From positions 1-36,745 of the forward strand of contig JAJEIP010000124.1 in the NCBI GenBank assembly GCA_022827885.1: a stretch of 36,745 nt of DNA, given 5' to 3'. The DNA comes from Candidatus Poribacteria bacterium (GTDB taxonomy: Bacteria > Poribacteria > WGA-4E > WGA-3G). The translations under genes and the position numbers were made by a program. This document shows, one piece after another, positions 8,621 to 32,149 of this stretch (within the stretch, counting starts at the first letter, position 1; each line of letters starts with the position of its first letter). The notes below the pieces were generated by a model. The model did not search any database. It was not told where the DNA came from and worked only from the letters and a program-made list of their open reading frames with translations.

Positions 8621-8621
8621 C

Positions 8622-8928
8622 GTGGGAGGGCTTTGTAAGCCCGATTTTCTCTGAAGACTTTGAAGATTATTTCAGGTCTAATCTCTTGTGGGAGGGCTTT
8701 GTAAGCCCGATTTTCTCTGAAGGCTTTGAAGATTATTTTAGGTCTAATCTCTTGTGGGAGGGCTTTGTAAGCCCGATTTTCTCTGAAGGCTTTGAAGATT
8801 ATTTCAGGTCTAATCTCTTGTAGGAGGGCTTTGTAAGCGATTTTCTGTGAAGACTTTGAAGATTATTTCAGGTCTAATCTCTTGTGGGAGGGCTTTGTAA
8901 GCCCGATTTTCTCTGAAGGCTTTGAAAA
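8622..8928 (+). repeat. 66-bp tandem repeat array (four full units plus partial)
   Basis: Units begin with GTGGGAGGGCTTTGTAAGCC at 8622, 8688, 8754, 8820 and 8884. Unit length is 66 bp, except the fourth, which lost two C bases (64 bp). Copies differ at only a few positions, e.g. GAAGACTTT versus GAAGGCTTT. The fifth copy breaks off near 8928. Each unit contains the hairpin GGGCTT-TGT-AAGCCC. Adjacent copies lack the diverse spacers of a CRISPR. The array lies immediately after the Tm-1-like gene, so it would be in its 3' transcript. Confidence 0.9.
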
Positions 8929-8964
8929 TGCATTATAGCAAAAAGAAAGGTTATCGATGGAGGT

Positions 8965-9059
8965 ATCGGGGTTAGAAACCCCTCCCACAAAGATTCAAGA
9001 CTGAGACCTTTCCTACAAGAAGTTGAGAGGGGTATCGGGGTTGGAAATCCCTCCCACAA
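8965..9059 (-). repeat. Two inverted relatives of the 66-bp repeat head
   Basis: At 8965-8990 and 9034-9059, ATCGGGGTTRGAAAYCCCTC followed by CCACAA is the reverse-complement form of the GTGGGAGGG...CCCGAT head of the array. The stem sequence is slightly different (GGGGTT/AACCCC instead of GGGCTT/AAGCCC). A third decayed copy (TTCCTACAAGA) lies near 9010. With the array they form a large inverted arrangement. The rest of the 556-nt gap (8621-9176) shows no coding sequence. Confidence 0.75.
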
Positions 9060-9176
9060 GAGAGATTTCGGACAATTGAATGGCCCTGTCTTTGTAGCAT
9101 AGGCTGTTGGTCTCCTGTGCCTCTCCCTTTTGGTCTTAACTAAAACCGTTCAAACTTTAGTACAAGGAACCTGTAA

Positions 9177-14040: not shown

Positions 14041-16595
14041 GAGTACTCATTGTTGCGAAAACCCGCATGGGAAGCGGCGCGTGTATCGGCGCGATTACAG
14101 AAACAGGGGAAAGCGTCCGGCTCGTTCCGTTTAACGCGGATCCGCATGACGGCGCGAATCGGGAATATGAGGTTGGTGACATTTGGGAGATTACGGGAGA
14201 ACCCGAAACGTCGTTGATTCCACCGCACAATGAAAACTTTGTCGTGCATAAGAAATCGCGTCTTCACACGACAGAAGACATGAAAGACCTGGTGAGCGCG
14301 ATTGAACTCTTAATGCCGCCGAAAACTGGGCATCCACGCGTCCTCTATGAAGGTTTATTGCAAAACACTGAAAGTGGCAGACTTCACATTAGCAAACAGA
14401 ACGGCATTCCACCCTACAGTACTATATTTTGGCGAACCGACCAGCCCCTCGCTCGCGATACGGAAGGGCGGAAGGTCCGGTATCGCTACCCCACCGAAAA
14501 CGGCGGTTGCACATTTACTTTTGCTGGTTTTCAAAAACCACCTGAGGTACTTCCTACGGGAACGCTCCTGCGTGTGTCTTTGGCACATTGGTGGAAACCA
14601 AAAGATATACCAGAAGTAGACGAGCGTTGCTACGCCCAAATTTCGGGTTGGTTTCTCGAAGCGGTAAAAGAGAAAGAACAGAAACCCATCGGTGAAGAGA
14701 AACCGTCGCTCCCTCAAAATTTGACACGATCCCCTTTAGAGATTCTCGAGAATATTTTCAAGCATACGGAATTCCGCCCATTTCAGGAAGAGATTATTAA
14801 TCACATCCTCAAGAAACAAGATGCGCTGATCGTTTTACCAACCGGTGGTGGGAAGTCGCTTTGTTATCAATTGCCGGCACTCATTTTTGAGGGTGTGACC
14901 GTAGTCGTCTCTCCACTCGTTTCGCTCATGCAGGACCAGGTGATGCAACTGACAAACCTCGGTATTCGTGCTGTTTTTCTTAACCATACTATCGAATATA
15001 CTGAATACGTTGCCACAATGCAGGCGGTCAGACAGGGTGAAATCAAATTGCTTTATCTCGCACCTGAAACGCTCATGAAGTCTGAAATACTCATAATGCT
15101 TGATGAAGCAGATGTCGCCTGTCTTGCGATTGATGAAGCCCACTGCATTTCACAGTGGGGCCACGATTTTCGTCCGGATTATCGAGGGTTGGTTTCTATT
15201 CGCGAGCGATTCCAAAGTGCTGTTTGGGTTACTCTAACTGCCACTGCAACACCGCGAGTTCAAACGGATATTAAAGAATTACTTAAGTTCGACGAAGGAC
15301 ATGAGTTCATAGGGAGTTTTAATCGAGAAAACCTCTTTATCGCTGTTGAGCCGAAGGTTGAATTGTTTGATCAGGCACTCGCGTTTCTCCAAAAACACCA
15401 GCAAGAATCCGGTATTATCTATTGTCAAACGATCAAACAAGTTGAATCATTATGCCGCGATCTAACCGCCAGACGGATTTCTGTCCTTCCTTATCACGCA
15501 AATTTAGATGACGAAACCCGTAAACAGAATCAGGACGCTTTCATTAAGGGTGATGTTCGGGTGATAGTCGCCACGATCGCCTTCGGTATGGGTATTGATA
15601 AAGCAGATGTCCGTTTTGTGCTACATGCGGGTTTGCCGAAGGAGCCGGAATCTTACTATCAAGAAATTGGACGCAGTGGACGCGATGGACTTCCAGCAGA
15701 CTGTCTCTTGTTATTCAGTTACGGGGACGTGGACACTATCGACCACTTCATCAATCAAGGGGCATCATCTGAAAGACAGGGACGACAGGAACGATTGCAG
15801 ACGCTTGTTTCGTGGGCAACATCAATAGCGTGTCGCCGAAAAGTGTTGTTAGCCTATTTCGGGGAGGAATACGAAAATCAGAATTGTGGGATGTGTGATA
15901 ACTGCCGCAACTCGGAAATGGAACGGATTGATTTGACGACTTCGGCGCAAAAATTTCTTTCCTGCGTTCTGCGGACAGGACAGTTGTTTGGAGAAGCGTA
16001 TATTATTGATGTATTGCGGGGTTCGCAACAAAAAAAAATCCTGAATAACAGGCACGATCGACTCTCCACGCATGGAATTGGCACAGATTACAGTAAAACA
16101 CAATGGCGATATTTGTCCCTCCAATTTCTCCAACATAAACTTCTTGCGCGAGATGCCCGACACGGCAGCCTCCGCGTGACACAGAAGGGGTGGGGTGTCC
16201 TCAACAGAGGCGATCAGTTTTGCGGATTACCGGTGGACACAATAGACCGTGCTACAGCAGATTCAGTAAAGCACGGAACTGAAACACCAAACACATCTGA
16301 GGCAGCATCTGAAGAACCGAACGCATACGCTCCGGAACTTTTTGAGCAACTTCGAGAGAAGCGCAAAATGATTGCTGATGCAGAAGACGTTCCGGCGTTC
16401 GTTGTCTTTAGCGATCGAACGTTGCGAGAGATAGCCTTTCATTTTCCGAAAACCGAAGCAGAATTTATGCAGATTCACGGGGTTGGGCCCGCGAAAGTTG
16501 AGAAATACGCCGAGTTTTTTTTACCAATCATCCGTGATTATTGCAAAGAACAGGGAATTACAGAGCAGTCTAATGAATCGTCCTTACCTAATTAA
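14037..16595 (+). CDS. RecQ-family ATP-dependent DNA helicase with N-terminal dual-OB-like domain
   Basis: 852 aa; starts at GTG 14037, overlapping the DUF488 stop. Residues 1 to about 215 (RVLIVAKTRMGSGACIGAIT, VRLVPFN, WEITGEP ... WWKPKD) look like a dual OB-fold module, uncommon in RecQ. The helicase core follows: FRPFQEEII (Q-motif), Walker A LPTGGGKS (about 267-274), DEAH in AIDEAHCISQWGHDFRPDY (about 365), TLTATATP, and motif VI QEIGRSGRDG (about 541-550). A zinc site follows (C598...CGMCDNC about 616-622), then an RQC-like winged helix. An HRDC domain lies near 780-840 (VVFSDRTLREIA ... IHGVGPAKVEKY). It unwinds 3'-tailed DNA in the family. Fusion to OB folds and coupling to DUF488 suggest a specialised repair or defence helicase. 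Confidence 0.9.
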   Translation: MRVLIVAKTRMGSGACIGAITETGESVRLVPFNADPHDGANREYEVGDIWEITGEPETSLIPPHNENFVVHKKSRLHTTEDMKDLVSAIELLMPPKTGHPRVLYEGLLQNTESGRLHISKQNGIPPYSTIFWRTDQPLARDTEGRKVRYRYPTENGGCTFTFAGFQKPPEVLPTGTLLRVSLAHWWKPKDIPEVDERCYAQISGWFLEAVKEKEQKPIGEEKPSLPQNLTRSPLEILENIFKHTEFRPFQEEIINHILKKQDALIVLPTGGGKSLCYQLPALIFEGVTVVVSPLVSLMQDQVMQLTNLGIRAVFLNHTIEYTEYVATMQAVRQGEIKLLYLAPETLMKSEILIMLDEADVACLAIDEAHCISQWGHDFRPDYRGLVSIRERFQSAVWVTLTATATPRVQTDIKELLKFDEGHEFIGSFNRENLFIAVEPKVELFDQALAFLQKHQQESGIIYCQTIKQVESLCRDLTARRISVLPYHANLDDETRKQNQDAFIKGDVRVIVATIAFGMGIDKADVRFVLHAGLPKEPESYYQEIGRSGRDGLPADCLLLFSYGDVDTIDHFINQGASSERQGRQERLQTLVSWATSIACRRKVLLAYFGEEYENQNCGMCDNCRNSEMERIDLTTSAQKFLSCVLRTGQLFGEAYIIDVLRGSQQKKILNNRHDRLSTHGIGTDYSKTQWRYLSLQFLQHKLLARDARHGSLRVTQKGWGVLNRGDQFCGLPVDTIDRATADSVKHGTETPNTSEAASEEPNAYAPELFEQLREKRKMIADAEDVPAFVVFSDRTLREIAFHFPKTEAEFMQIHGVGPAKVEKYAEFFLPIIRDYCKEQGITEQSNESSLPN

Positions 16596-18238: not shown

Positions 18239-18354
18239 TTTCTCTCCTTTTCGCTAAATCCCTGGTACTTGATTGTATCACATCAGGTCGATGCGGTCAA
18301 CGCTAAATATCCACAATTCAATAAATAGGCGGATTCTTCTATGTTGCAAAATTA

Positions 18355-18382
18355 TGCACCCTATTCAGCCGAAAATTGTGTC
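18355..18382 (+). promoter_or_regulatory. ECF-type promoter motif, copy A
   Basis: TGCACC (18355-18360), 17 nt, GTGTC (18378-18382), then TTTAA; preceded by AAATTA. It lies 72 nt upstream of the first PD40 gene. One of six copies in the window with the same spacing. Confidence 0.7.
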
Positions 18383-18454
18383 TTTAACTTATGAGAGGTC
18401 TTACGTATTACGTTTATTGTTCAAATTATAAGATGATCTTAGGAGAGAAGCCTT

Positions 18455-19474
18455 ATGAGAACGATGAGATTGTTAGTCTTTTTCCTACTTAAGGTGTTGT
18501 TGGTCCTGAATACAAATGTTTATTCAGTTTTCGCAAAAGCACCAACAACCCCTAAAATCCTGTTTACCTCTACACGCGACGGAAACAGAGAAATATACAC
18601 CATGAACCCTGATGGCAGCGAACAGGTGAGACTCACACAACATCCTGGAAATGATCTGCAAGCCGTCTGGTCACCTACAGGCGAAAAGATTCTTCTCATC
18701 TCCGATCGCGGGGGCGAGCGAGACCTTTACCTGATGGACCCAGATGGAAAAAACGTTCGACGCGTCTTCAAGAGAAAAACGAAAATTTATAGAACCAACC
18801 CAACATGGTCGCCAGATGGCAAACACATCGCTTATGTGAACGCGAAGGTGGGTAATCTTAATGCTGATATACACATTGCGCGCCTTGGGGAACAAGAGGA
18901 TGAACATATTGCGGAAGGCTGGTATCCCGCATGGTCGCCCGATGGCACTGAAATTGCCTACTCTGTAGACCAGCCATTCGCGTCTCAACTAACATTTATC
19001 AACGTCCAGACACGAGCGCAGGCACAACCGCTACCCATAAAAGCACTGATTTGGCAATACTATCCTTCTTGGTCTGCTGTGGGAGATAGACTTGCCTTTA
19101 CTGGGAACAAGCATCCGCTACCCCCCATCTTGGATGCGGATCTTCATAACGCATGGAAGAAGAAACAGACGATCTACATCGTCAATCGAGACGGCTCCGG
19201 TCTCAAACAACTCGTTAAAGAAGCAGGTCCCTATGCCCAGTATCCAGCGTTATCGCCGGATGGAGAAGATGTCCTTTATACACAGGAAATTAAGGGGCGG
19301 CTCCAAATCTTCAAACTTAATCTAAACAGCGGGATTCGGACGCAGCTGACGCATCTTGGGGGTATCCGTCAAGCGAATGCTGGCGGGGATTGGTTTGATC
19401 CCGAGTATGCGTTGCCAGTCTCACCACAACCCCAGTTGCTCACAACAACATGGGGGGAAGTGAAAAAGAAATAA
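18455..19474 (+). CDS. TolB-like PD40 beta-propeller secreted protein with C-terminal WG tag
   Basis: 339 aa; start has GGAGAG 9-10 nt upstream. An N-terminal signal sequence (LLVFFLLKVLLVLNTNVYSV, cleavage near VFA/KA) precedes PD40/WD40-like blades: STRDGNREIYTMNPDGS, WSPTGEKILLISDRGG, LYLMDPDG, WSPDGKHIAYVN, WSPDGTEIAYS, LSPDGEDVLYT. The W-S-P-D-G repeats are those of the TolB propeller family, which bind peptides or envelope partners in the periplasm. It ends QPQLLTTTWGEVKKK, the shared tag. An ECF-type promoter motif lies 72 nt upstream. Paralogue of the next gene (same N-terminal and C-terminal design). Confidence 0.85.
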   Translation: MRTMRLLVFFLLKVLLVLNTNVYSVFAKAPTTPKILFTSTRDGNREIYTMNPDGSEQVRLTQHPGNDLQAVWSPTGEKILLISDRGGERDLYLMDPDGKNVRRVFKRKTKIYRTNPTWSPDGKHIAYVNAKVGNLNADIHIARLGEQEDEHIAEGWYPAWSPDGTEIAYSVDQPFASQLTFINVQTRAQAQPLPIKALIWQYYPSWSAVGDRLAFTGNKHPLPPILDADLHNAWKKKQTIYIVNRDGSGLKQLVKEAGPYAQYPALSPDGEDVLYTQEIKGRLQIFKLNLNSGIRTQLTHLGGIRQANAGGDWFDPEYALPVSPQPQLLTTTWGEVKKK

Positions 19475-19650
19475 CGTTTCAGATTTAATCACCTTGAAAG
19501 TACTTTAGCAGTGATGTTATTCCAATATTCTATTTCTGCTGAAGTTATATTTGTTTTCTCGTATTCCAACGGAATGAAGTGCGTAGTTCTAATGTATTCA
19601 TAATCTACTATAGTTTTTAAGTGAATATTTCTAATTTTGAGGAAATTCTC

Positions 19651-20616
19651 ATGGCTTTTCGGCTACTACTTTTTACTTGCAGTTTGGTGTTGTGCTGGCT
19701 TTGCCCTGTTTGGGCAGAAGCCCCGAAAACCGCTAAAATCGCGTTTTGGGCAGACCGTGAAGGGACTCGTGATATTTATCTCATGAATCCAGATGGGAGT
19801 CAACAGACGAAAATAACACATCACCGTGCACAGAACATCACGCCTATTTGGTTCCCAACAGGTGAACAGATCCTCTTCACCTCTGATCGAGATGGCGTTT
19901 GGGATCTATACCTCATGGATCCAGATGGAACAAATGTGCAACGCGTCTTTGAGAAAGAAGCACCCAGAGCGGAACCCGCATTGTCTCCCGATGGTAAACA
20001 GATCGCTTACTCGCGCATCATAAACGATGAACGAGTCCTCCACATTGCCACACTCGGTGAAGAGGATGAGGAACGCCTCGCAATAGGGGGACCTCCGACG
20101 TGGTCGCCAGACGGAACGGAAATCGCATTCGTTACTGGCTGGGAAACGGAAAAGATGCAGATAAGTATCTTCAACCTACGTACTGGCAAACAGAAGACCC
20201 TGTTTCCACCCAAGGCAACACCCTCATGGCTACCTACCGTGAAATGGTCCCCAAGAGGAGACAAGATCGCTTTTTCTTGGCTTAACCAAGTTCCCCTTAA
20301 GGATTTCATTGAGAGAGAGACAATTTATACAGTAAAACGCGATGGAACAGGCATCACCCAGATTATTGATGAAGCGGGTCCAAAAGCAACCTCGGTGGCT
20401 TGGTCTCCCAGTGGCGACGCACTGCTCTATAGACAGGCTGATGAAAACAAGAATTTTCAAATTTTCAAAGTCAATTTAAGGGATGGGCAGTCCGAACAAC
20501 TAACGCATGTTGGATGGAATCATCTTGGGGATTGGTTTGATCCGGCGTATGCGTTGCCCGTTTCACCACAACCCCAGTTGCTCACGACAATATGGGGAAA
20601 ACTGAAACGAGAATAG
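19651..20616 (+). CDS. TolB-like PD40 beta-propeller secreted protein, paralogue
   Basis: 321 aa from ATG 19651, chosen over an in-frame GTG 30 nt upstream because GAGG lies 8 nt before it and the signal peptide starts there (MAFRLLLFTCSLVLCWLCPV, cleavage at WAEA). PD40 blades: ADREGTRDIYLMNPDGS, TSDRDGVWDLYLMDPDG, LSPDGKQIAYS, WSPDGTEIAFV, WSPRGDKIAFS, WSPSGDALLYR. It ends SPQPQLLTTIWGKLKRE, the shared C-terminal tag. Followed after 26 nt by a MacB-type permease gene, which suggests cotranscription. The upstream 176-nt gap has no copy of the ECF-type motif, so this gene may depend on readthrough or its own promoter. Confidence 0.85.
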   Translation: MAFRLLLFTCSLVLCWLCPVWAEAPKTAKIAFWADREGTRDIYLMNPDGSQQTKITHHRAQNITPIWFPTGEQILFTSDRDGVWDLYLMDPDGTNVQRVFEKEAPRAEPALSPDGKQIAYSRIINDERVLHIATLGEEDEERLAIGGPPTWSPDGTEIAFVTGWETEKMQISIFNLRTGKQKTLFPPKATPSWLPTVKWSPRGDKIAFSWLNQVPLKDFIERETIYTVKRDGTGITQIIDEAGPKATSVAWSPSGDALLYRQADENKNFQIFKVNLRDGQSEQLTHVGWNHLGDWFDPAYALPVSPQPQLLTTIWGKLKRE

Positions 20617-20642
20617 GTTTTCATATAATATGGAGGAGTGAA

Positions 20643-21943
20643 ATGCGCACAGTTGAGGCGATATCAATTAGTATTGCTGCACTTCGTTCAAATAAACTGC
20701 GCTCTCTGCTGACGATGTTGGGGATTATTATCGGTGTTGCTTCAGTACTGGCGATGATAGCGATTGGTGATGGTGCCAAGGAGATAGTCCAGCAAGATAT
20801 ACAGAAACTCGGCGGTGCGAATCAGTTTACTATGTATCGGTTGCGGTTCAAACGTATAAATAACCGCTGGGTCCGTAACCGCAGCAGCGAATACCTGAAA
20901 TATGAAGACGTGTTGGCAATGGAAGCGGAATGTCCTTCCCTCAAGGCGGTCGCGCCGCAACTCTGGAACTGGTCAGGGGTACTCATCCAGGCAGGGGCGG
21001 CGCTGAAACCCGTGCGGGTTGGAACGGCGTAGACGCTCACTATAAAACTGCAATGGAGTGGAACCTTAAAGAGGGACGTTTTATCACAGATGAAGATGTA
21101 GAGAATGGAGCGAAAATCTGCGTATTGGGAAATGAGATTGCTACTGCCTTATTCGGTAATAAATCGCCCTTGGGACAAGAAATTAAAATCGCACGACACA
21201 GTGAGTATTACAATTGGAAACACCGAAAAAAAGGAGTGCGATTCACAGAACGATTTAAAGTCGTCGGGGTCCTCATGCCGAGAGGTAGAAGTCTTCGATT
21301 CGGTTGGAGTTTCGACAACCTGGCCTTTATTCCTATATCAACCGTTCAAGAACGCTTCACCGGCAATAACCATATTGAGTATATCTCGGTCCATACGCAT
21401 ACCATCGAGGATATTCCTCAGGCAATTGAAGAGGTGAAAACAGTCATTAGAAAGAGACACAAAAACCAAGACGATTTCATCGCGTTTTTTGAGATGCGAA
21501 AAGGTATGGCACAGTTAGAGAAAATTAGTAAAGTCATAAAGATAACCTTAGGCAGCATTGCTGGATTCTCGCTACTTGTCGGTGGCATCGGGATTATGAA
21601 CATGATGCTTGTTGCTGCCAACGAGCGCACCCGTGAAATCGGATTACGAAAAGCACTCGGTGCTAAACCTCTTGATATCCTACTCCAGTTTTTAATAGAA
21701 GCGGTGATAATATGTAGCGTAGGCGGCGGAATCGGTATTGGATTAGGCATCTTTGCCGGTGAAAGCATGGCAATACTTGCCGTCAAAATTGTCAAAATTG
21801 TCCCTGAATGGCCCGCCGTTATATCCTTACAATGGGTGCTGATTTCAGTATCATTCTCAGTGGTAATCGGTATTTCGTTTGGGCTGTATCCCGCGATAAA
21901 AGCATCATCGCTCCCCCCTATTGAAGCACTCCGCGCAGAATAG
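20643..21943 (+). pseudogene. MacB-type ABC transporter permease, frameshifted
   Basis: Start ATG 20643 with GGAGGAG 4-5 nt upstream. The first part (MRTVEAISISIAALRSNKLR, SLLTMLGIIIGVASVLAMIA) is the N-terminal membrane helix plus start of the periplasmic domain of MacB/FtsX-type permeases. It stops at TAG 21030-21032. The next frame carries the rest: DAHYKTAMEWNLKEGRF, periplasmic core, then three membrane helices ending with GIGIMNMMLVAANERTREIG, LRKALGA and LYPAIKASSLPPIEALRAE. Restoring one base near 21025-21030 gives a normal-length protein of about 433 aa. No MacB ATPase gene is next to it. Either a real one-base deletion or a sequence error. Confidence 0.75.
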
Positions 21944-22516: not shown

Positions 22517-22692
22517 GCGTGTTACGTTCGCATATTTTCGCCAAATTATGTCCATTTTTTTCAGCAGGTTATGCCTTTTTTACCAACAAATTATGCATTG
22601 CACCTTGATAACCTGTGGCTTTCATACCGAAATATGTGCGGGCTTGGTGTGATTTTATGCGTGTTATGTTCGCATATTTTTTTCAAATTATG
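22517..22692. repeat. Near-identical 34-bp direct repeat, 142-bp period
   Basis: GCGTGTTACGTTCGCATATT... at 22517-22550 and the same with ATG for ACG at 22659-22692. Both end CAAATTATG, and the second runs directly into ECF-type motif C. Between them are further AAATTATG / GGTTATG half-sites (22565, 22583). This looks like a duplicated promoter-proximal region. The 426-nt gap 22342-22767 contains no gene besides these elements. Confidence 0.7.
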
Positions 22693-22718
22693 CACCCTCT
22701 GCTACAAAATGTGGTGTC
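22691..22718 (+). promoter_or_regulatory. ECF-type promoter motif, copy C
   Basis: TGCACC (22691-22696), 17 nt, GTGTC (22714-22718), then CTTAATTTT; preceded by CAAATTA. It is 49 nt upstream of the GTG at 22768 and rules out any further-upstream start for the glycosyltransferase. Confidence 0.75.
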
Positions 22719-22767
22719 CTTAATTTTGAGAGCTCAATTACAAACAACGAAAAGATTGGAGAAAAAA

Positions 22768-24513
22768 GTGTTTGATTTCCCAAGAATTTTACACCCGCTT
22801 TACCTCTTTGAAAAGGATGCTGTATTTTATGCTGCAGACCTTGAAAAAGCGAGTATTATCGAACTCTCCGCTGTAATGTTCGACATCTTGAAATTGGCGG
22901 AGGAGCAGACAAATGAAGAAATTGTCCAAGTCCTGAAAACCACTTATGCAGAGGACGAGATTTATGAGGCGTTTGAGAGATTCGCGGAATTTGAAAGGGA
23001 AGGATTACTATTCAATCGCGGTGAAAATCTCAGAGAAACTTTCGCTGTAGAAAGTAAACGGCGGAAGTTGCTTGTTGCAATACCGGGTATCAATGTTGAC
23101 TCGTATTTTGATATCGAAACGTTGTATGCGGGAACGAACATGGCACTGTCTTACATGTTTGAACATCTCACCAAATACGTAGATCTTCACTTTGCAGGCA
23201 ACCAGAATCGGAAGTTAGCAGATAACGTATATGAAGTTGATATCAGTGTGTCTGACTTCGGGAGACGCAGCCGAAGAATCAACGAAACCTATTTCGGTAT
23301 TCTAACCTTACATCGCGACCAGGAAACGTGGCTGCTACCACTTTACGAGCATATAGAACTCCCACCGATCTTAGTTCAGTGTCACGCCCCCCGTGGACAT
23401 GGTGGAAAAGCGATAAACTCTATATTGCGGCATTACGCAGCGATGCGAGATTTTGATGCTTTCACGGCTCCCTCGGATTATGTCCGGGAGTTCTATTCGG
23501 ATTATGTATGGGACTCGAGTTTCTTTAATACACTCCCTAACGGTGTAGATTCGGCGTTGTTCCGCCCGATGGATAAACAAAAAGCCAAGCAAGAGTTGGC
23601 TGAACAGGTTGGAGACGAACGTATTGTAACAACTCCAACTGTTGGCTACCTTTCACGGGTGCAGTCAGAAAAAGGAGCATCTATCTACTTAAAACTCGCT
23701 GAACTGAATCCGCATTTGTTGTTTTTGATTGCCGGTCCGAACCTCGGAAGGTATCAATCGAGGGAACTTCCTAATAATCTCGTCTATGCCGGATTCCATC
23801 CTCGTGAGAAGTTGCCACTGGTCTACAATGCGTTTGATGTCTACTGTTTCCTTTCAATGTCAGGTGAGGAAACCTTTGGATTGACGGTTCTCGAAGCGAT
23901 GGCGTGTGGTATTCCACCTATTGTTCCTAATTTTGATGGTGTGCCATCGGTTGTTGGAAATACCGGTCTGATTGCTGATGCCGAGAATTTTGAAGAAGAT
24001 ATAGCGACGGTTGTGAGTTACCCTTCACCCTTGGATTTCTCGGAGAAGATTAATGTGCTGCTGAATGATGACGAAATGCGACAGGAACTTTCTCGGAGGG
24101 CAAGGGAACGAGCAGTGTCGTTCACTTGGGACAAAACGGCGCGACGGATTATAAAGTGCTTTGAGAGACTCCACGAAAAGAGACGGCTCGTCAGTCCAAA
24201 TAGACTTTTAAATATGTTTGTACCGATACCGTCAGAAGCATCTCACGGTTTAGAGAGGGAAGGCTTAACACATCAAGACAGTGAGTGGTTGAAATACAAA
24301 TCGATTGTATTGGGGATGGATCAACATTATGAGCGTTGTCTAATAAGGGATGCAGCGTATTCCATGCACCTTGAGGATGGTCTTGCGCTAAGCATTTTGA
24401 AGAATCATACCGTGAGGGAAGCTGAGGCAGTCCTTGCTGCGGTGGTTGAGGATGAGGAACGAGCAAAGGCAACACTTAAAAGGGTTCACGGCTTAATACA
24501 GGCGACTGCCTAA
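22768..24513 (+). CDS. Glycosyltransferase family 4 with N-terminal PqqD-like (RRE-like) domain
   Basis: 581 aa from GTG 22768 (TTGGAG 6-7 nt upstream); longer open frames overlap promoter motif C. Residues 1 to about 85 (FDFPRILHPLYLFEKDAVFY, IIELSAVMFDILKLAEEQTN, EEIVQVLKTTYAEDEIYEAF, then REGLLF) have the winged-helix pattern of PqqD-like RiPP recognition elements, which bind leader peptides. Then a GT-B fold: PTVGYLSRVQSEKGASIYLK donor-domain start, LLFLIAGPNLG, and the E-x7-E signature EETFGLTVLEAMACG (about 366-378), giving a retaining GT4-type enzyme. A helical C-terminal region of about 100 aa follows. Probably cytosolic; transfers a sugar from a nucleotide donor to a peptide bound through the RRE (inference). 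First gene of an operon. Confidence 0.8.
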   Translation: MFDFPRILHPLYLFEKDAVFYAADLEKASIIELSAVMFDILKLAEEQTNEEIVQVLKTTYAEDEIYEAFERFAEFEREGLLFNRGENLRETFAVESKRRKLLVAIPGINVDSYFDIETLYAGTNMALSYMFEHLTKYVDLHFAGNQNRKLADNVYEVDISVSDFGRRSRRINETYFGILTLHRDQETWLLPLYEHIELPPILVQCHAPRGHGGKAINSILRHYAAMRDFDAFTAPSDYVREFYSDYVWDSSFFNTLPNGVDSALFRPMDKQKAKQELAEQVGDERIVTTPTVGYLSRVQSEKGASIYLKLAELNPHLLFLIAGPNLGRYQSRELPNNLVYAGFHPREKLPLVYNAFDVYCFLSMSGEETFGLTVLEAMACGIPPIVPNFDGVPSVVGNTGLIADAENFEEDIATVVSYPSPLDFSEKINVLLNDDEMRQELSRRARERAVSFTWDKTARRIIKCFERLHEKRRLVSPNRLLNMFVPIPSEASHGLEREGLTHQDSEWLKYKSIVLGMDQHYERCLIRDAAYSMHLEDGLALSILKNHTVREAEAVLAAVVEDEERAKATLKRVHGLIQATA

Positions 24514-24536
24514 CATAAAAGGAGGATAAAGAATCA

Positions 24537-26219
24537 ATGACCCATAACCCAAGTTATCGCTTAAAACCGCATCATAAATTTGAACAAGAGGGTCGCAAAT
24601 ATGTGGCTGACCTTGAAACCAACGACATCATTGAAATCAACGATGTAGAATCGGATATTCTGAGTCGCTATGGGACTCAGACGGAGTATCAAATTGTTGA
24701 ATCTTTGAAAAAAAAGTATAAGGTGTCATCTGTTTTTGAAGGTATTAAACGATTGGAGTGGTTTGGTAAGCGAGGACAACTTTTAGCACAGATTCCTGAG
24801 TCATCTGGTGAGTTTAACGCCTCTCAACCTGTATGTGGGGAACTCAGGTTATTGGTTCCATTCGGTTTTAGAGAAGAAGAATCATCAATTGATTACATTA
24901 CGACTATGAATCGGTATCAACTTTTATCTTCACTTACGCGTAAAGCATCGTTAGAGACGCTGGCTTTTTCACAAGTGAAGGATGGCGGTATGCGCCCCGG
25001 TACCAAGAGAGATTTGGGGAAGATTCGTATTCGACAGATAACAAATGATGCGGACGATACCTTTGCGCCTGTATGGCACGCTAGAGAAGGATACGATGGT
25101 ATTTTACTGCTTTCTCAATTAATGGAAAATGACCTGTTATACTATCAGGTTCCAGATATTCCAATTGTTCACTGTATAGAAAACAGCCAGAAACTACAAA
25201 GTTCGCTGCTTGAATCAATCTTGGCTCTCTATGTAGCCCAGAAAACGAATGATAGTTTGGTTGTCAAAGCATCATGGATGAAGGAATGGCTGAGTGAGTG
25301 TGGTATTCCGGGAAGGCATATCCACGTGATTCCGGACGGTATCAACGTTGTTGAACCGATTGATAAGGGGTTAGCAAAGCAACACACCGCTGTTATTTTT
25401 GATAGACCGATGTTTGCCGAGCACCCGGTTGTTGGATTGGTTTCTGGATTTGAGCCGCATCTTGGTGCACAGTGGATTTCTGCGTTTGCGAGAGCCAACC
25501 GACATCTCTCGATTTTTGTTTATGATCACGTATTGGCAAAGCACTATAAGAATCTGCCGGAGAATGTAGTAATTTTCAGGGCAGATGATGAGGATATGGC
25601 TGCAATTCTGCCCGTTTTCTTTCAGGCACTGGATCTGGTCTGTTTTCCTGCGATGCCGGGAACACCGCTTTCAGTGGTTTTGGAGGCAATGGCTTATGGA
25701 ACGCCGTGTATTGCCATGACGAAATACGGTCTCCCCCCAGAAGTAAAAGGAGCAGGGGTGAGTATCGGATTGGAATGGGATAATTTTGGAGATTTTCATG
25801 TATCCATGGACCAACTTTCGGTGGCGATTAATCAAGGGTTGGAGCCATCCAGTATGCGTGCTGAATATGAAAGAGTTGCGAAAGGTTTTACTCGGAAATA
25901 CATTTGGCAGAAGACAGCACACAATATTATCCGATTGTTTGAGGAGAATCATCCGTCAGTGACAAGAGGTTATCAAACGGATGAAAATTTGTTCCGTCCT
26001 ATTTTCTGTCGTCGGTATAGTTCTGAGACACGTAAAATAACATCCAATGTGTATAGATTGGGAATTAACAGATATGAACATCTTGAAAAAGCTTTGGCAG
26101 AGACACTTATGGAACAGCACAAATCAACTGAAGTCGCGTCTGTTTTCAAGCATTTCAAGATGGAAAGATCTATTCAACGACGAGGCGACTTTGTCTCTGG
26201 AAGAGGGACGAAATTTTGA
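24537..26219 (+). CDS. Second RRE-like-domain glycosyltransferase, active-site variant
   Basis: 560 aa; start preceded by AAAGGAGGA, 23 nt after the previous gene. The N-terminus (YRLKPHHKFEQEGRKYVADL, IIEINDVESDILSRYGTQTE, YQIVESLKKKYKVSSVFEGI) is again PqqD-like. The body is GT-B-like: VVKASWMKEWLSECGIPGRHIHVIPDGI, PVVGLVSGFEPHLGAQWISA, and ALDLVCFPAMPGTPLSVVLEAMAYGTP. In the E-x7-E motif the first Glu is replaced by Gly (MPG-TPLSVVLE), so donor-sugar handling may be altered, or the protein may act as a non-catalytic partner. A basic C-terminal extension (FKHFKMERSIQRRGD) is unique. Cotranscribed with the first enzyme; likely works with it on the peptide encoded next. Confidence 0.75.
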   Translation: MTHNPSYRLKPHHKFEQEGRKYVADLETNDIIEINDVESDILSRYGTQTEYQIVESLKKKYKVSSVFEGIKRLEWFGKRGQLLAQIPESSGEFNASQPVCGELRLLVPFGFREEESSIDYITTMNRYQLLSSLTRKASLETLAFSQVKDGGMRPGTKRDLGKIRIRQITNDADDTFAPVWHAREGYDGILLLSQLMENDLLYYQVPDIPIVHCIENSQKLQSSLLESILALYVAQKTNDSLVVKASWMKEWLSECGIPGRHIHVIPDGINVVEPIDKGLAKQHTAVIFDRPMFAEHPVVGLVSGFEPHLGAQWISAFARANRHLSIFVYDHVLAKHYKNLPENVVIFRADDEDMAAILPVFFQALDLVCFPAMPGTPLSVVLEAMAYGTPCIAMTKYGLPPEVKGAGVSIGLEWDNFGDFHVSMDQLSVAINQGLEPSSMRAEYERVAKGFTRKYIWQKTAHNIIRLFEENHPSVTRGYQTDENLFRPIFCRRYSSETRKITSNVYRLGINRYEHLEKALAETLMEQHKSTEVASVFKHFKMERSIQRRGDFVSGRGTKF

Positions 26220-26305: not shown

Positions 26306-26441
26306 GTTTTCAAGTATTTCCAGCAGAAGACCTCTACGCCTGATTTTCACGTAAGTCTTTGATGCTGGAATAGGTTTGCTAACTGCGTTTGGAAAATTAA
26401 TTTGGTTGGATGTAAATCCAGCAGAAAGGAGGAAAATCCAA

Positions 26442-26699
26442 GTGAAAAAAGAGACACGCGATAGAGCAAAGCGGTTTCTTACATCTGAGAGTGGACGGGT
26501 CGGTATACGGGCACCGTTAACTTTGGGTGTAGCCAGCGGGGTCCTTTTGTTATCGCAGGCGATGTATGCTCCATCCGCAGAAGCATCATGTGATAGTGAT
26601 GATGATTGCGGAACGGGGGGCTGGTGTTCCCAGACATGTATATTTTACGAGAAAGGAACTTGTGAGGCATGGGAATCTGTATGTGATTACGATAGTTAA
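26442..26699 (+). CDS. Small Cys-rich exported peptide, candidate RiPP precursor 1
   Basis: 85 aa. The GTG at 26442 is chosen because AAAGGAGG lies 9 nt upstream; the open frame further upstream has none. A charged N-terminus (KKETRDRAKRFLTSESGRVG) leads into a hydrophobic stretch (APLTLGVASGVLLLSQAM) and an A-E-A cleavage-type site, then a 37-residue acidic segment with six Cys (CDSDDDCGTGGWCSQTCIFY, CEAWESVC). The leader matches that of the second small peptide in spacing (F..E.G.V...(P/A)L..G). The peptide follows two RRE-like glycosyltransferases and is closed by a strong terminator. I infer a leader-guided, glycosylated or disulfide-rich secreted peptide; alternatively a plain secreted Cys-rich protein with an extended signal peptide. 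Confidence 0.65.
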   Translation: MKKETRDRAKRFLTSESGRVGIRAPLTLGVASGVLLLSQAMYAPSAEASCDSDDDCGTGGWCSQTCIFYEKGTCEAWESVCDYDS

Positions 26700-26825: not shown

Positions 26826-26925
26826 TTTAATATTTAAAAGGGATATTGTAAAGCATTTTTTTATATTTAGCAGCTTTAGAAACTGAAATAATATAACATA
26901 TTTTTATTCGTTTTGGAGGTTACGG

Positions 26926-29823
26926 ATGTTAGAAGATGATGTTAAATTAATACGCAGGATATTATCAGGTGATGATTCGGCATTCAGTACTTTAGTCGAG
27001 AAGCATCAAAAAGGGGTTCACGCGCTTATATGGCGGAAGATTGGTGATTTTCACTATGCCGAGGAACTGACGCAAGATGTTTTTTTCCAAGTATACAGAA
27101 AGCTTGGGACACTGAAAGATCCTCAGTGTTTTGCCGGATGGCTGTATGTTATTGCAAATCGGCTTACCCTTAATTGGATTCAGAGGCATAAACCGGCGAT
27201 GCAGTCGCTGGAAGATACACCCTTGGAAGAGATAGATGAATCCTCTTATACACATTACGTAACGCTGGAACGCGAGGCAGACGCGGCTGAGCAGAACTCT
27301 GAGATTGTCAAAAAACTTTTAGAAAGCTTGCCGGAGAGTGAGCGGACAGTCGTGACACTCTACTATCTTGGCGAAATGACAGTCAAGGAGATAGGCAACT
27401 TCTTAGGTGTGTCGGTAAACACAATAAAAAGTCGGCTTCGCCGAGGACGAGAGCGTTTACAAGCGTCAGAATCCTTGGTAAGCGAAGTGCTCGGGAGCGT
27501 GCAGTTACCTGCCGATTTAACGGCGCGGATTATGCGGCAAGTCGCCGATATTAACCCGACCGTTCCACCGACTGGCAAACCGTTAGTGCCGTGGGTATCT
27601 TTCGGCGTGGCAACAATTTTGGTTATGTTCCTGCTGGGTGCAAGTCATCAATATCTTGCTCGATTTCAAAAGCCGTATAGTTTCGAGGCGAGATCGGAAC
27701 CTATTATTGAAATCATTGAGGCACCTATCGTTCTTGATGTTATATCAAAACCGTCTATACAGAACCGGTTTGGTCGAGCTATTCTACCAGGGAAAAGCAT
27801 AGGTGCTGGCACGCAGTTTTCAGAGGCAACGCTAAGAACCCACTCCCAAGAAGATTTACGCACGTTTTCTACTCCGCAGTGGGGACAAACAGGCAGCCCT
27901 CCCGGTGGCCATGTACACGATATCTACACTGTTTCTGACGGAACTACCTTTGCTATTTCAAGAAGAGGTATGTACAAATTAGAAGCGGATGCGAGCACGT
28001 GGAGGCATCTGAATACAGGTGTTCCGATAGATGAATCTCTGATGCCGGTGGCGGAGAATCGCGGAACCCTCTATATTGTTTCTACAGATGAGATATTTGC
28101 GTCAGTGGATAAAGGTGAGACATGGCGTGCGTTTTGTGTCCGACCAAAGGGCGATACTGTTGGATTCATCATCATTGATGCGATAGAAGATCCGAACATA
28201 GAATCGGATATTATAATGTATCTTGCGCTTAGAGATGAGGGAATTTTCCGATCTATAGACAGCGGAATTGAATGGGAGCCACTTAACAATGGATTAACAG
28301 GCGAAAGGATTTCCGCAGTCGCTGCTATTGGAGGAACAGTGTTTACCGGCACAAACCAAGGTCTTTATCGTATGGATTCAGGTATTTGGAAAAAGTTGTC
28401 GGTGGGCACATCAAAAACCGTCTATTCCTTGTCAGTGCTTGAAAGTAATCTCTACGTTGGGATGGGACCCGATCTGGTTGGATTAACGACAATGGATGCG
28501 AGATCAATAGTCCTCAGCGACGAGCCGAATTCTGGCAGGATTTATCGATCAATTGACCTGGGAGCATCGTGGACTGAAATAACACCAACAGATCAATCTC
28601 GTCCTGCATCACTTCCATCGGGTGTGAAACTTTTATCCACCGATGGGACACTCTTAGCAATCGGTGCCAACACTTTTCGTTCAAAAGATGGTGGGGACAC
28701 TTGGACAGATCTTGGAATTTACAGCCATTCATATATGCTCAATAGTTTACCCGCTGCGGCGGTGAACGATGGGATGTTTTACAAAGTTGGCACCTTCGGT
28801 ATTCATCGCACCACGGATGGCGGTGAATCGTGGCATATATTTATGGACGGAGTGTTAGGCACAAGGATAAATGATTTGGTTGTGTTCAACAATAGATTAT
28901 ACACGCATACCGGTTATGAAGTTTATCAGTCAAATAATGAAGGTATGACTTGGAAAAGGATCCGTATAAGTCGTGAAGAAGTATCACATAAACCAGTAGA
29001 AGATAATCGGTCTCGTATTAATGCCGATTATCGAGCAAAATTTGTGATTGATAGTGGGATTCTCTATTTTATTTCTTTTGGAAAAAATCATTTGCGCATT
29101 TTCCGTTTATCTGGAGAAGGTAACACGCTGATTCCAGTTCAAGGGGTCTCTATTTTAAAGAGAGAGGATCGCTTGACAGAAACTATATTGCCTCTCGTTA
29201 AAGGATTGGTGACGGTCAAGGCGTTTGCAATTAGTCGGGACACGTTCTACGCTGAATACAAACGTAGACTTTTTAAATGGAAACTTGGTGATTCAGTATG
29301 GAAAGACACAGGATTGGTAGACTTGGGCGAGCAGTCTGATGCTGATTTCGATGAGGGATTTAAGCTAGCGGTTTCGGGAAAGACCCTCTACGTCGGAAAA
29401 CGAGACGGTAAGCTGCTCCAATCACTCGACGCAGGAAGTAATTGGAGAGATGTTACACCCAATCTACCACTTCACTTTACAGCGTTCAAAGAGATCGTCT
29501 TTGTGGGCTTATCGGTTTACGTCGCGACGGATGCAGGCGTCTTAGTCTCGGAAACTGGGGAACACTGGCGTGTAATAATGGATAGATCAGGGACACCTAT
29601 CGTCATAAACCACTTTGCTATGAACCATTTCGCTGTGACGGGTCCCAGAGTTTACGGTGCTGGAGATATGGGGATTTACGGCATGGATACTGATGGGTAC
29701 TGGAAACAATTTGCTTCAGAAGTGCCAGGTAAAGTTGCCTCTCTTGGTATAATTAATAACAAACTCTATGGTGCCACTAAAGATCGTGGAATATTTCAGA
29801 TATCGCTTGCGGAGGAATGGTAG
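26926..29823 (+). CDS. ECF sigma factor fused via one membrane helix to a BNR-type beta-propeller
   Basis: 965 aa; ATG preceded by TTGGAGG 8 nt upstream. Sigma region 2 spans about 13-85 (FSTLVEKHQKGVHALIWRKI, YAEELTQDVFFQVYRKLGTL, FAGWLYVIANRLTLNWIQRH). Region 4 spans about 128-180 (LLESLPESERTVVTLYYLGE, MTVKEIGNFLGVSVNTIKSR, LRRGRERL). A linker leads to a transmembrane helix at about 222-239 (PWVSFGVATILVMFLLGAS). From about 310 to the end lie repeated Asp-box/BNR blades (S-x-D-x-G-x-x-W): SVDKGETWRAF, SIDSGIEWEPL, SIDLGASWTEI, SKDGGDTWTDL, TTDGGESWHIF, SNNEGMTWKRI, SLDAGSNWRDV. The topology puts the sigma part in the cytoplasm and the propeller outside. It likely senses an envelope ligand and drives promoters such as motif D. 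Confidence 0.9.
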   Translation: MLEDDVKLIRRILSGDDSAFSTLVEKHQKGVHALIWRKIGDFHYAEELTQDVFFQVYRKLGTLKDPQCFAGWLYVIANRLTLNWIQRHKPAMQSLEDTPLEEIDESSYTHYVTLEREADAAEQNSEIVKKLLESLPESERTVVTLYYLGEMTVKEIGNFLGVSVNTIKSRLRRGRERLQASESLVSEVLGSVQLPADLTARIMRQVADINPTVPPTGKPLVPWVSFGVATILVMFLLGASHQYLARFQKPYSFEARSEPIIEIIEAPIVLDVISKPSIQNRFGRAILPGKSIGAGTQFSEATLRTHSQEDLRTFSTPQWGQTGSPPGGHVHDIYTVSDGTTFAISRRGMYKLEADASTWRHLNTGVPIDESLMPVAENRGTLYIVSTDEIFASVDKGETWRAFCVRPKGDTVGFIIIDAIEDPNIESDIIMYLALRDEGIFRSIDSGIEWEPLNNGLTGERISAVAAIGGTVFTGTNQGLYRMDSGIWKKLSVGTSKTVYSLSVLESNLYVGMGPDLVGLTTMDARSIVLSDEPNSGRIYRSIDLGASWTEITPTDQSRPASLPSGVKLLSTDGTLLAIGANTFRSKDGGDTWTDLGIYSHSYMLNSLPAAAVNDGMFYKVGTFGIHRTTDGGESWHIFMDGVLGTRINDLVVFNNRLYTHTGYEVYQSNNEGMTWKRIRISREEVSHKPVEDNRSRINADYRAKFVIDSGILYFISFGKNHLRIFRLSGEGNTLIPVQGVSILKREDRLTETILPLVKGLVTVKAFAISRDTFYAEYKRRLFKWKLGDSVWKDTGLVDLGEQSDADFDEGFKLAVSGKTLYVGKRDGKLLQSLDAGSNWRDVTPNLPLHFTAFKEIVFVGLSVYVATDAGVLVSETGEHWRVIMDRSGTPIVINHFAMNHFAVTGPRVYGAGDMGIYGMDTDGYWKQFASEVPGKVASLGIINNKLYGATKDRGIFQISLAEEW

Positions 29824-29966: not shown

Positions 29967-30578
29967 ATGGAAATGGATATAGAAACTGCGAGAAAGATTG
30001 TAGGTGCCCACGATCAGAAGAAACCCTCTGAGGTCGCGAAAGCGGTAGATGTTTTATATCAGGCATTGGGAACTTATCAAGCCATCACACGAGAAATGGG
30101 TAAATCGGATAAGTTTTGGATCGTCCGCCATCGTATCTCCCAACTTCCGATAGGCATTCTGTGGAAAATTGATGAGGGACATATCGGAATTGAGCAAGCC
30201 TATCAAATCACTCGACTCAAGCAGGAAGAAGATCAATGGATATTGGCTATAGCGATTGTTGAGGTGAAAGGTCTGACGGCTAAAGAGTGTAGAAAAGTTG
30301 TTAACGTTGTGCTTAACGAGGGTAAATCCATTATGGATTCCCTTAGCATTTTAGTGGATATCCATTTTGACAAAATTCAACCCCTTTCGCTTCCTCTTGG
30401 ATCTGATATTTGGACCGAAATCTGTAAGATTGCCTGGACACAACGCCAAAGGTGGGAGGACCTGTGTTATCAATTAGTGCGTCAAGGTGTAGACGTTAAC
30501 ATTCAGGAAGTGGCATCTCAACTTGAGGGACTCGTCCTGGATTTACGCCAAGCGAGAAGAAATGAACGAGAAAAATAA
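29967..30578 (+). CDS. ParB/KorB-like HTH domain protein without CTPase domain
   Basis: 203 aa; AGGAGG 10 nt upstream of ATG. The central part (WIVRHRISQLPIGILWKIDE, GHIGIEQAYQITRLKQEEDQ, ILAIAIVEVKGLTAKECRKV) follows the ParB/KorB helix-turn-helix pattern: R-x-x-I-x-x-L-P-x-x-x-L, G-x-I-x-x-x-x-A, then a lost-time helix with L-T-x-x-E. The N-terminal ParB CTP-binding motif (GERR-type) is absent, so it is not a full ParB. The C-terminus is helical with an Arg/Glu tail. Likely a DNA-binding regulator. It follows the sigma-propeller gene and may be controlled with it. Confidence 0.6.
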   Translation: MEMDIETARKIVGAHDQKKPSEVAKAVDVLYQALGTYQAITREMGKSDKFWIVRHRISQLPIGILWKIDEGHIGIEQAYQITRLKQEEDQWILAIAIVEVKGLTAKECRKVVNVVLNEGKSIMDSLSILVDIHFDKIQPLSLPLGSDIWTEICKIAWTQRQRWEDLCYQLVRQGVDVNIQEVASQLEGLVLDLRQARRNEREK

Positions 30579-30752: not shown

Positions 30753-31637
30753 TCATTGGTTAAGGATTAAGCTGTGCCCATGTGGGTGTGAGTTTTCCTT
30801 GTGTTTTGACTGTAGGGGGATGTTGATTTGTGCCCCATTTTTCCCCACCAGATGATATTCATTACCTGATGTATCTGAGAATTCTCGTGTTCCATCGGGT
30901 TCATCAAAATGCCACAACGCAACTGTCTTTACATCATTTTCAAACTTGCCGCGCGGTGTAAAACCTTGTTTCTTGACATCGTAACGAGCAACCGTTGAGA
31001 TGCGGACCTCATCAATATATCCTGCAAAAGCACCCCAAAAATGATCATGACCGCTGGAACCAATTTTCTTTCCAAAACCTCCAAGCGTAAAATCCTTTGG
31101 ACGCTCGATGCTTGAAAGATCGTGTGCAAGCATTGTATTTTGGGGTAAGATGTATACGTAATCATTAATGATTGTTGTTGTCTGATGCCCATTTGACTGA
31201 AAAGCGATGTGATGCCATTGGTTCGGCGAAAGTGCCTTCGGGTGGTAGGGTGTCGTAACGACTTTTTCCCCCACCATAAAATGTGCTCGAATTCTTAGGA
31301 ACACATCTCCCTTCTGCCAATCAATATCATTCCTTATGTCCTCCCACCCATCGTGAACATCGTTTACAACATCCATTCGCACCTGTTGGCTGAGAATCAT
31401 CGCGTGTATATCATCGGCAGGCGGTGTGGTTGGATATATCCATGCTTCTATAGTGAATTCATCCGTGCCTTCGGGTAAAAGCGTACCGAAGGTTTTAAAA
31501 TCTAAAACGGCGTAGTCATCGACCCCGTCGAGAGCTAAATAGTTTCCACCTGCGGGTGAAGGTGGTGGGAGTGCTTTGGCATTCAACGGAATTAATGCGA
31601 TCAAAAAGAAATATGTAAGGATTTGCCGGTAAATCAT
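30753..31637 (-). CDS. LamG-domain secreted protein, C-terminal tag lost by frameshift
   Basis: 294 aa as read; AAGGAG 8 nt upstream of ATG. Signal peptide MIYRQILTYFFLIALIPLNA with AKA cleavage site, then a concanavalin-like LamG fold: NYLALDGVDDYAVLDF, DEFTIEAWIYPTTPP, NQWHHIAFQSNGHQTTTIIN, FTLGGFGKK, WGAFAGYIDEVRISTVARYD, TVALWHFDEPDGTREFSDTS. Probably a secreted carbohydrate- or surface-binding protein. It is a paralogue of the gene at 33353. After INIP the frame diverges: adding one C to the C-run (G-run 30815-30819 on the plus strand) gives PTVKTQGKLTPTWAQLNP, ending at TAA 30762-30760 and matching the family tag. ECF-type motif E lies 85 nt upstream. Confidence 0.85.
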   Translation of the reverse strand: MIYRQILTYFFLIALIPLNAKALPPPSPAGGNYLALDGVDDYAVLDFKTFGTLLPEGTDEFTIEAWIYPTTPPADDIHAMILSQQVRMDVVNDVHDGWEDIRNDIDWQKGDVFLRIRAHFMVGEKVVTTPYHPKALSPNQWHHIAFQSNGHQTTTIINDYVYILPQNTMLAHDLSSIERPKDFTLGGFGKKIGSSGHDHFWGAFAGYIDEVRISTVARYDVKKQGFTPRGKFENDVKTVALWHFDEPDGTREFSDTSGNEYHLVGKNGAQINIPLQSKHKENSHPHGHSLILNQ

Positions 31638-31722
31638 TTGTTATCTCCTTTTTTGTCTAAAATCTAAAAATTGTGCGTTCAACATAAGAACGTTCAGAAA
31701 AAGAACCTTGTCTATAATTAAG

Positions 31723-31750
31723 GACACATTTTTACGGTGGAAGGTGTGCA
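31723..31750 (-). promoter_or_regulatory. ECF-type promoter motif, copy E
   Basis: Minus strand: TGCACA (31750-31745, one mismatch), 17 nt, GTGTC (31727-31723), then CTTAATTATA; preceded by GAATTA. It lies 86 nt from the LamG start and back to back with copy F. Confidence 0.65.
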
Positions 31751-31781
31751 TAATTCAAAAATTGGTATTATTCATTGTTTA

Positions 31782-31809
31782 TGCACCCCTATTCCTCCAA
31801 AATAGTGTC
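31782..31809 (+). promoter_or_regulatory. ECF-type promoter motif, copy F
   Basis: TGCACC (31782-31787), 17 nt, GTGTC (31805-31809), then CTTAATTTT; 100 nt upstream of the second peptide gene. With copy E it makes a divergent promoter pair. Confidence 0.7.
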
Positions 31810-31909
31810 CTTAATTTTAAATGGTAGTGTTTCCTACGCTTGAGATTTTTTGAACACCTATGGTTAAAATATTACCGTTTTTAATAAAAAGGAGAGGAGG
31901 TGAAATTGA

Positions 31910-32149
31910 ATGCAGACGCATGTAACGCAACTAACGAAGCAGCGTCTCAGCGATTTCTTCGTCAAAGAAGATGGACATGTTGCTCATAAGAACGCGTTAG
32001 TCGCTGGAACTGTTGCAACAGGCGCAATTCTCGCATCGCTAATGCTCACACCCGATTCAGATGGGTGTCCTAGAAGCGTTCAACTTTGCTTCACAAAACA
32101 CAAGATGATTGGCAGCAGGTTTCATCTGCTGGGCAAGAGAGAGCCATAG
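31910..32149 (+). CDS. Small peptide with shared leader, candidate RiPP precursor 2
   Basis: 79 aa; GGAGGTGAAATTGA before the ATG. The N-terminal 45 residues (KQRLSDFFVKEDGHVAHKNA, LVAGTVATGAILASLMLTP) align without gaps to the leader of peptide 1 over 32 positions with 8 identities: F, E, G, V, L, G, L, M. The remainder, DSDGCPRSVQLCF then a basic tail, has two Cys. It lacks an A-x-A site, unlike peptide 1. Its last 64 nt overlap the frame of the following kinase, so the true C-terminus or kinase start may differ from that given. Own ECF-type promoter 100 nt upstream. Role inferred as substrate for the leader-binding glycosyltransferases. Confidence 0.5.
   Translation: MQTHVTQLTKQRLSDFFVKEDGHVAHKNALVAGTVATGAILASLMLTPDSDGCPRSVQLCFTKHKMIGSRFHLLGKREP

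Follow-up and report, generated by a model that had tools for sequence, protein, structure and literature searches.

An ECF sigma factor fused to a predicted membrane helix and tandem β-propeller, and its expanded family, in Candidatus Poribacteria

Described systems and organization of the fusion protein

In canonical ECF signalling, the sensor is a separate anti-sigma factor. ECF sigma factors with C-terminal regulatory extensions constitute a known class (PMC8999054, PMC8103513). The ECF52 protein SCO4117 of Streptomyces is apparently autoregulated, and ECF52 combines a sigma domain, a membrane helix and an outer carbohydrate-binding domain in one protein; a zf-HC2 domain lies between sigma and helix, and the group, of which S. 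coelicolor has a single member, is reported from Actinobacteria alone (PMC5826349). IutY (ECF243) of Pseudomonas putida is a fused sigma factor released by Prc and RseP, its fused part being an anti-sigma factor of the iron cell-surface-signalling type (PMC8999054). In ECF57 and the planctomycete WD40 ECF sigma factors, the sigma domain is followed by β-propeller-type repeats; ECF57 is distinguished by two cysteines that join sigma2 to sigma4, and its extension has been proposed to mediate protein interactions (PMC8999054, PMC8567305). The RsgI sensors of Clostridium thermocellum have CBM or GH-like ectodomains and sense polysaccharides; RseP cleaves RsgI within its helix, SigI6 reads its own promoter, and the GH10 fold of RsgI6 still binds but shows very little activity (PMC12203970, PMC4711584). 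Our literature search found no paper reporting sigma fusions in Poribacteria.

Poribacteria are best known from marine sponges. The window analyzed here is a whole contig of 36,745 nucleotides (C75) from a 5.13 Mb Candidatus Poribacteria metagenome-assembled genome (MAG) of 148 contigs. One of its genes encodes a 965-residue protein composed of a complete ECF sigma factor, a linker of ~40 residues, one helix, an outer segment of ~50 residues and a 650-residue propeller part, for which the features are as follows:

26915–26919, + strand: Shine–Dalgarno sequence GGAGG of the sigma-propeller gene (sequence)
26926–29823, + strand: sigma-propeller gene (ECF sigma, transmembrane helix, tandem β-propeller), single ATG open reading frame (ORF), 965 aa
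26947–27201, + strand: sigma region 2, residues 8–92 (Pfam Sigma70_r2; alignment with SigW, 5wuq)
27301–27465, + strand: sigma region 4, residues 126–180, helix-turn-helix for promoter −35 recognition (Pfam Sigma70_r4_2)
27466–27582, + strand: predicted cytoplasmic linker, residues 181–219, with a short helix at 198–207 (sequence and AF2 model)
27583–27645, + strand: predicted single membrane helix, residues about 220–240 (hydropathy 220–238; AF2 helix 224–246)
27646–27795, + strand: conserved, predicted outer juxtamembrane segment, RFQxPYSFEAxSEPTIEIIDAPIVLDIxxKPxVRNQxGR (alignment A2)
27871–29820, + strand: predicted ectodomain, residues 316–965, two tandem propellers of GH74-like fold with 7 Asp boxes (AF2, Foldseek, VIA-align)

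The first-pass annotation had read regions 2 and 4 of an ECF sigma factor in the N-terminal part, and Pfam places Sigma70_r2 at residues 23–89 and Sigma70_r4_2 at 126–178, both above their cut-offs. The match to TIGR02937 also exceeds its cut-off, and region 3 is absent, as expected of an ECF sigma factor. The closest solved relative is SigW of B. subtilis, aligned over residues 8–181 (E 1.3e-32); modelled from residue 1 to 306, with good confidence across most of sigma2 and sigma4, the protein matches it structurally with Z 14.6 over 156 residues and an rmsd of 5.0. The relative placement of sigma2 and sigma4 in this model is closer to anti-sigma-bound SigW and CnrH than to polymerase-bound ECF sigma factors, which may reflect a preference of the modelling and was given no weight. 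Relative to its counterpart at L081, the nearest named relative, the whole ORF is under purifying selection (dN/dS < 1; 0.26 in the propeller region), strongest in sigma2, where amino acid identity is 91%, dN is 0.04, dS is 0.56 and dN/dS is about 0.07.

A zinc-type anti-sigma domain would not fit into a linker of this length. The membrane helix had been placed at about residues 222–239, within the range given by hydropathy and the AF2 model; it is identical to that of L081 at 21 of 21 positions and only moderately conserved among paralogues (mean identity 41%). Averaged over 85 family members, the inside flank carries 2.7 K/R and 1.0 D/E and the outside flank 2.0 K/R and 2.1 D/E, a charge bias that fits an N-in/C-out topology. 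A second hydropathy peak, at 857–875, coincides with predicted propeller strands.

In the C-terminal part, Pfam reports Sortilin/DUF6242/BNR-type propeller matches. The pattern [ST]x[DNE]xGxxW occurs seven times, at 393, 443, 542, 586, 629, 669 and 833, and the strict form SxDxGxxW five times; shuffled ectodomains contain 0.04 on average and at most 2. The at least seven Asp-box blades proposed from the sequence are thus present, but taken as a single seven-bladed unit they undercount the domain, which AF2 models as ~14 blades in two tandem propellers. GH74 xyloglucanases are themselves tandem seven-bladed propellers, and they are the best solved matches of the ectodomain model (Foldseek 2cn3, E 1.4e-25; VIA-align Z 25.1, range 24–25, 567 aligned residues, rmsd 6.0). 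The modelled ectodomain therefore appears to have the GH74 tandem-propeller fold, although it is joined to a sigma factor and sequence identity is about 16–18%; phmmer with the ectodomain alone returned weak Asp-box matches only. The ligand of the outer propeller would most likely be a glycan or glycoprotein.

Set against the described systems, the family appears from its sequence to be a variant within the known class of extended ECF sigma factors, with the extension in the same ORF and no cognate anti-sigma factor adjoining, and to join none of ECF52, IutY and ECF57. It resembles ECF52 in combining sigma domain, membrane helix and outer domain in one protein and in its apparent autoregulation, but a Pfam search of the whole protein for a zf-HC2 zinc finger gave no match, the outer part is a tandem propeller, there are many copies per genome, and the relatives are Candidatus Poribacteria rather than actinobacterial. 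With IutY it shares a sigma domain and a membrane-anchored regulatory part in one protein; a search of the window protein for a FecR-type domain (Pfam, E ≤ 0.01) found none. ECF57 is alike in the succession of sigma domain and propeller-type repeats, whereas the family here has Asp-box instead of WD40 blades, a membrane helix between the two parts and no cysteine pair: the sigma domain of the window protein contains no cysteine, and across the family a single cysteine is near-invariant in sigma2 (position 81), with none in sigma4. By analogy, SigI/RsgI would be a functional parallel, with paralogous receptor sets, autoregulated sigma promoters and RseP in the pathway; there, however, the sensor and SigI, a non-ECF sigma factor, are two distinct proteins, whereas here an ECF sigma factor and its putative sensor form one polypeptide, with neither a SigI-type sigma nor a separate RsgI.

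A family of sigma fusions in Poribacteria

The genome contains 53 matches to sigma region 2, about 30 of them within long ORFs. The order of sigma domain, membrane helix and Asp-box propeller is found in 14 proteins, and about 10 more carry the same sigma and transmembrane chassis with other outer domains, namely LRR (three proteins, two of which also match GHL15), Kelch, AhpC/TSA (thioredoxin-like) or domains that are unassigned. In one paralogue, L040, the helix and the outer segment between sigma and propeller are missing, which would leave the propeller in the cytoplasm. Alignment A2, which covers the helix and its flanks, has 24 full or nearly full copies in the genome. Across 24 paralogues the recognition helix of region 4 is nearly identical, and mean identity among paralogues is 73% in sigma4 and 42% in the ectodomain, so that conservation is higher on the output side than on the sensor side. 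In a sibling sigma-membrane gene, L041 (G000:C148, about 15904–16592), the frame changes within the membrane module, and two intact siblings adjoin it.

Across the phylum, the A2 module is present in 68 of 85 genomes, always in the order seen in the window protein and with up to 56 listed matches per genome, and the helix is retained in 85 of 86 family members. Related genes were found in all 30 poribacterial relatives first searched, some distant ones matching at the level of the sigma part only, and full-length, stop-free matches in 17 of 17 genomes of the same genus. All 77 named relative loci, among the matches listed in a single contig scan that thus does not represent other phyla, belong to Candidatus Poribacteria, and all named relatives are MAGs. 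L081 shares 77% protein identity, and 88% DNA identity over 8.6 kb of common gene order.

Conventional arrangements also occur. At five loci elsewhere in the genome a zf-HC2 anti-sigma gene adjoins a stand-alone ECF sigma gene, and none of the six zf-HC2 matches in the genome lies inside a sigma-membrane fusion. The first-pass annotation had seen no anti-sigma factor next to the window gene, and by Pfam both neighbouring genes are indeed of other kinds. Three fusions (L036, L061 and L064) adjoin a free protein resembling their own C-terminal domain, at 38–63% identity: Kelch at 38%, an unnamed domain at 63% over 364 residues, and another unnamed domain at about 50%. In the 63% pair the promoter-like motif described below lies upstream of both genes, and the free Kelch protein has an apparent signal peptide. 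This adjacency suggests that sensors may have been recruited from neighbouring, often exported, proteins. A comparison of neighbours found no free Asp-box propeller beside the window gene.

Other sigma fusions were seen in the same genome. An ECF sigma domain and FtsZ share one ORF at L049:3792–5459 (+ strand; TIGR00065 above cut-off) and at L048:3906–5126 (+ strand). The L049-type fusion is present in nine of nine other genomes of the genus searched, most of which also have a separate FtsZ, and its ORF reaches 1350–1760 aa in most of these genomes; the FtsZ part begins near a linker Met, so an internal start is possible. Likewise, an ECF sigma domain precedes a DNA polymerase III β clamp at L019:1432–3162 (+ strand; TIGR00663 above cut-off), and this fusion also recurs in all nine further genomes searched within the genus, alongside DnaN copies that stand alone; here, too, an internal start is possible because a native-looking DnaN start Met stays in the linker. 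Fusions that lack a helix directly after sigma include an M61 peptidase with PDZ (L052:4198–7200), an AhpC/TSA protein (L054:4052–5959) and a tandem pair with ArsR-like HTH (L062:5972–7561 and 7929–9101).

A promoter-like motif and a candidate regulon

The upstream regions of the fusions have in common a bipartite motif, ATGCAMCCTTT-N~17-GTCwyTAA, that resembles an ECF promoter. With a matrix built from 47 sites, five sites are found in the window, scoring 19 to 35 as against at most 13.5 in shuffled windows; two of the five (26795 and 18351) were in the training set. All five point toward a gene. The sites and the genes around them are:

18351–18388, + strand: motif before a PD40/TolB-like and MacB-type group (18455–21943), score 35.4, also a pattern match
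22615–26219, + strand: glycosyltransferase gene pair, candidate members of the regulon (gene order relative to the sigma gene shared with L081 and in part with L082)
22687–22724, + strand: motif before the glycosyltransferase pair, score 26.9, outside the training set, also in L081
26376–26699, + strand: small Cys-rich ORF, 107 aa, adjoining the sigma gene, partly kept in L082
26795–26831, + strand: motif before the sigma-propeller gene, score 34.5, predicted promoter
29967–30578: ParB-HTH/DUF7119-like gene, the other neighbour of the sigma gene (Pfam)
31717–31754, − strand: motif before a LamG-domain exported protein (30753–31637), score 22.9, outside the training set
31778–31815, + strand: divergent motif before a small ORF (31910), score 19.1, outside the training set; L081 counterpart 24.4

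The real start of the glycosyltransferase pair is probably GTG 22768. The small ORF at 31910–32149 is homologous to a Cys-rich peptide of L081, and the small ORFs at 26376–26699 and L081:9001–9279 each have a hydrophobic stretch and a Cys-rich tail. The glycosyltransferases beside small ORFs have N-termini that look PqqD-like by eye, and together these genes possibly form a modified-peptide cluster, unconfirmed by family search. The MacB-type permease at 20592–21943 runs over two overlapping frames, indicating a frameshift in the gene or the assembly.

Upstream of sigma genes, the motif is present in 54 of 108 regions, compared with 1 of 108 after shuffling, and in 17 of the 37 long upstream regions from this genome, a set in which three sigma genes are of housekeeping type and one entry is a duplicate. 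No site lies upstream in any of 12 stand-alone sigma loci. Scanned over the whole genome with a strict pattern rather than the matrix, the motif gives 18 matches, versus 2 for a reversed-pattern control. Sigma fusions lie downstream of 8 of the 18 (P about 2e-13, for plausible gene numbers), and the other 10 precede PD40, LamG, MacB, ABC transporter, M16 peptidase, FG-GAP-like and binding-protein genes, names that were partly assigned by eye where there was no family search. The loci examined in this genome hold 36 sites scoring at least 16, and 848 kb of relatives' loci hold 96 scoring at least 18, with none in shuffled sequence in either case; the relatives' sites precede sigma fusions and LamG, PD40, WD40, ABC and glycosyltransferase genes. 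It is on the sites before genes other than sigma that a wider candidate regulon rests.

Over 85 genomes, the number of motifs follows the number of modules (rho 0.87; within the genus 0.77; control −0.003). The correlation is partly built in, as many motifs sit before sigma genes, and the genomes are not independent; it therefore shows only that motif and family travel together. In the 30 genomes with 0–3 modules the motif is near the control level, although related sigma domains occur in several of the genomes sampled from this group. From this co-occurrence we infer that the fused sigma factors read the motif.

Proposed signalling and alternative explanations

We consider it reasonably probable that the sigma-propeller protein is a one-polypeptide transmembrane signal transducer whose freed sigma factor serves promoters of the ATGCAMCCTTT-N~17-GTCwyTAA type. 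Placed across the membrane, the conserved domain that reads DNA would face inward and the diverging lectin- or enzyme-like fold outward, an arrangement best understood as a receptor with transcription as its output. In the proposed scheme, the sigma domain would be cytoplasmic and tethered to the membrane through one helix, and the GH74-like tandem propeller outside would bind an extracytoplasmic ligand. A signal would free the sigma factor, most likely through two cuts, one outside and then one by RseP within the helix, and the freed sigma would load RNA polymerase at the motif promoters, driving its own gene and neighbouring genes for exported repeat or lectin proteins, ABC transport and glycosyltransferases. 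Paralogues with differing outer domains and a near-identical DNA-recognition helix would feed one promoter class. The support comes from the single ORF, the domain order, conservation, and the motif and its placement; from these follow, conditionally, the topology, the reading of the motif by these sigma factors, the ligand class and proteolytic release. An RseP-like protease had been named at the outset as something to look for, and the genome encodes a homologue, an M50 protease that adjoins dxr and has both HELGH and PDZ domains; with the precedent of IutY, it makes proteolytic release plausible. Some observations count against the scheme: between sigma4 and the helix there is no anti-sigma-like domain that would explain how the sigma factor is held off, about half of the fusion genes have no motif within 400 bp, and L040 lacks the helix.

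The main rival is that the sigma factor acts while bound to the membrane, its ligand altering shape or clustering without proteolysis. CadC/ToxR-type regulators act in this way, and the missing zf-HC2 match, the mere ~40 residues from sigma4 to the helix and the moderate conservation of the helix among paralogues are all in its favour. Yet among the described fused membrane ECF sigma factors, IutY is cut and ECF52 has been proposed to be (PMC8999054), and the RseP homologue is at hand; we regard action at the membrane as unlikely, though deserving of weight. We think it improbable that the propeller is instead a cytoplasmic protein-binding platform, comparable to the WD40 extensions of ECF57, with a helix that does not export it. 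L040 and the fusions to the cytoplasmic proteins DnaN and FtsZ point that way, but the near-universal helix and its N-in/C-out charge bias do not, nor do the chassis members with LRR and Kelch domains, one of which, the Kelch fusion, adjoins the Kelch protein with the apparent signal peptide.

The motif might also belong to a different ECF sigma factor, of which the fused ones would be clients or to which they would be unrelated. About 20 other sigma genes in the genome and the fusions without a motif leave room for this; however, motif number tracks module number even inside the genus, falls to near control level in the genomes with few or no modules, and no stand-alone sigma gene bears the motif, making this a distinctly unlikely account. 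Least credible, to the point of being very improbable, is that the ORF yields two proteins or that the fusion is an assembly artefact or a decaying gene, as the frame change in the sibling L041 (about 15.9–16.6 kb) might suggest. The first-pass annotation held that an internal start before the helix would undo its reading, and asked whether relatives keep the fusion. An uninterrupted ORF of more than 850 aa is present in 71 of the 74 relative loci examined, besides the full-length matches across the genus, and dN/dS stays below 1 along the ORF. Of the 86 family members, 85 have a Shine–Dalgarno-like sequence ahead of the sigma start; ahead of Met203, which is not invariant, such a sequence occurs in only 9 of the 68 members with this residue, close to the background of 8.5%; an internal start was rejected on these grounds. 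An overlapping element near codons 181–240, considered because of a low synonymous rate relative to L081, was also rejected, the signal disappearing over 86 members, and synonymous constraint around Met203 is absent across the family. The original reading, a sigma factor tethered to an extracytoplasmic propeller in one polypeptide, withstands all the computational tests run.

What is new here is the motif, before about half of the fusions and before recurrent neighbours, and the large, expanded family. With GH74 reported to be abundant in poribacterial genomes (PMC6081418), some of the proteins so counted may be sensors rather than enzymes, a suggestion that comes from the present family and not from a comparison with those counts. 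More tentatively, and with considerable doubt, Poribacteria might largely have swapped sigma/anti-sigma pairs for dozens of membrane sigma-receptors with diverging ectodomains and one promoter class, perhaps active at the membrane. In the family described here, the putative sensor and the sigma factor reside in one protein present in dozens of copies, for which the promoter motif gives a testable regulon. Such a design would show how a bacterium can place many receptors in control of a single transcriptional output.
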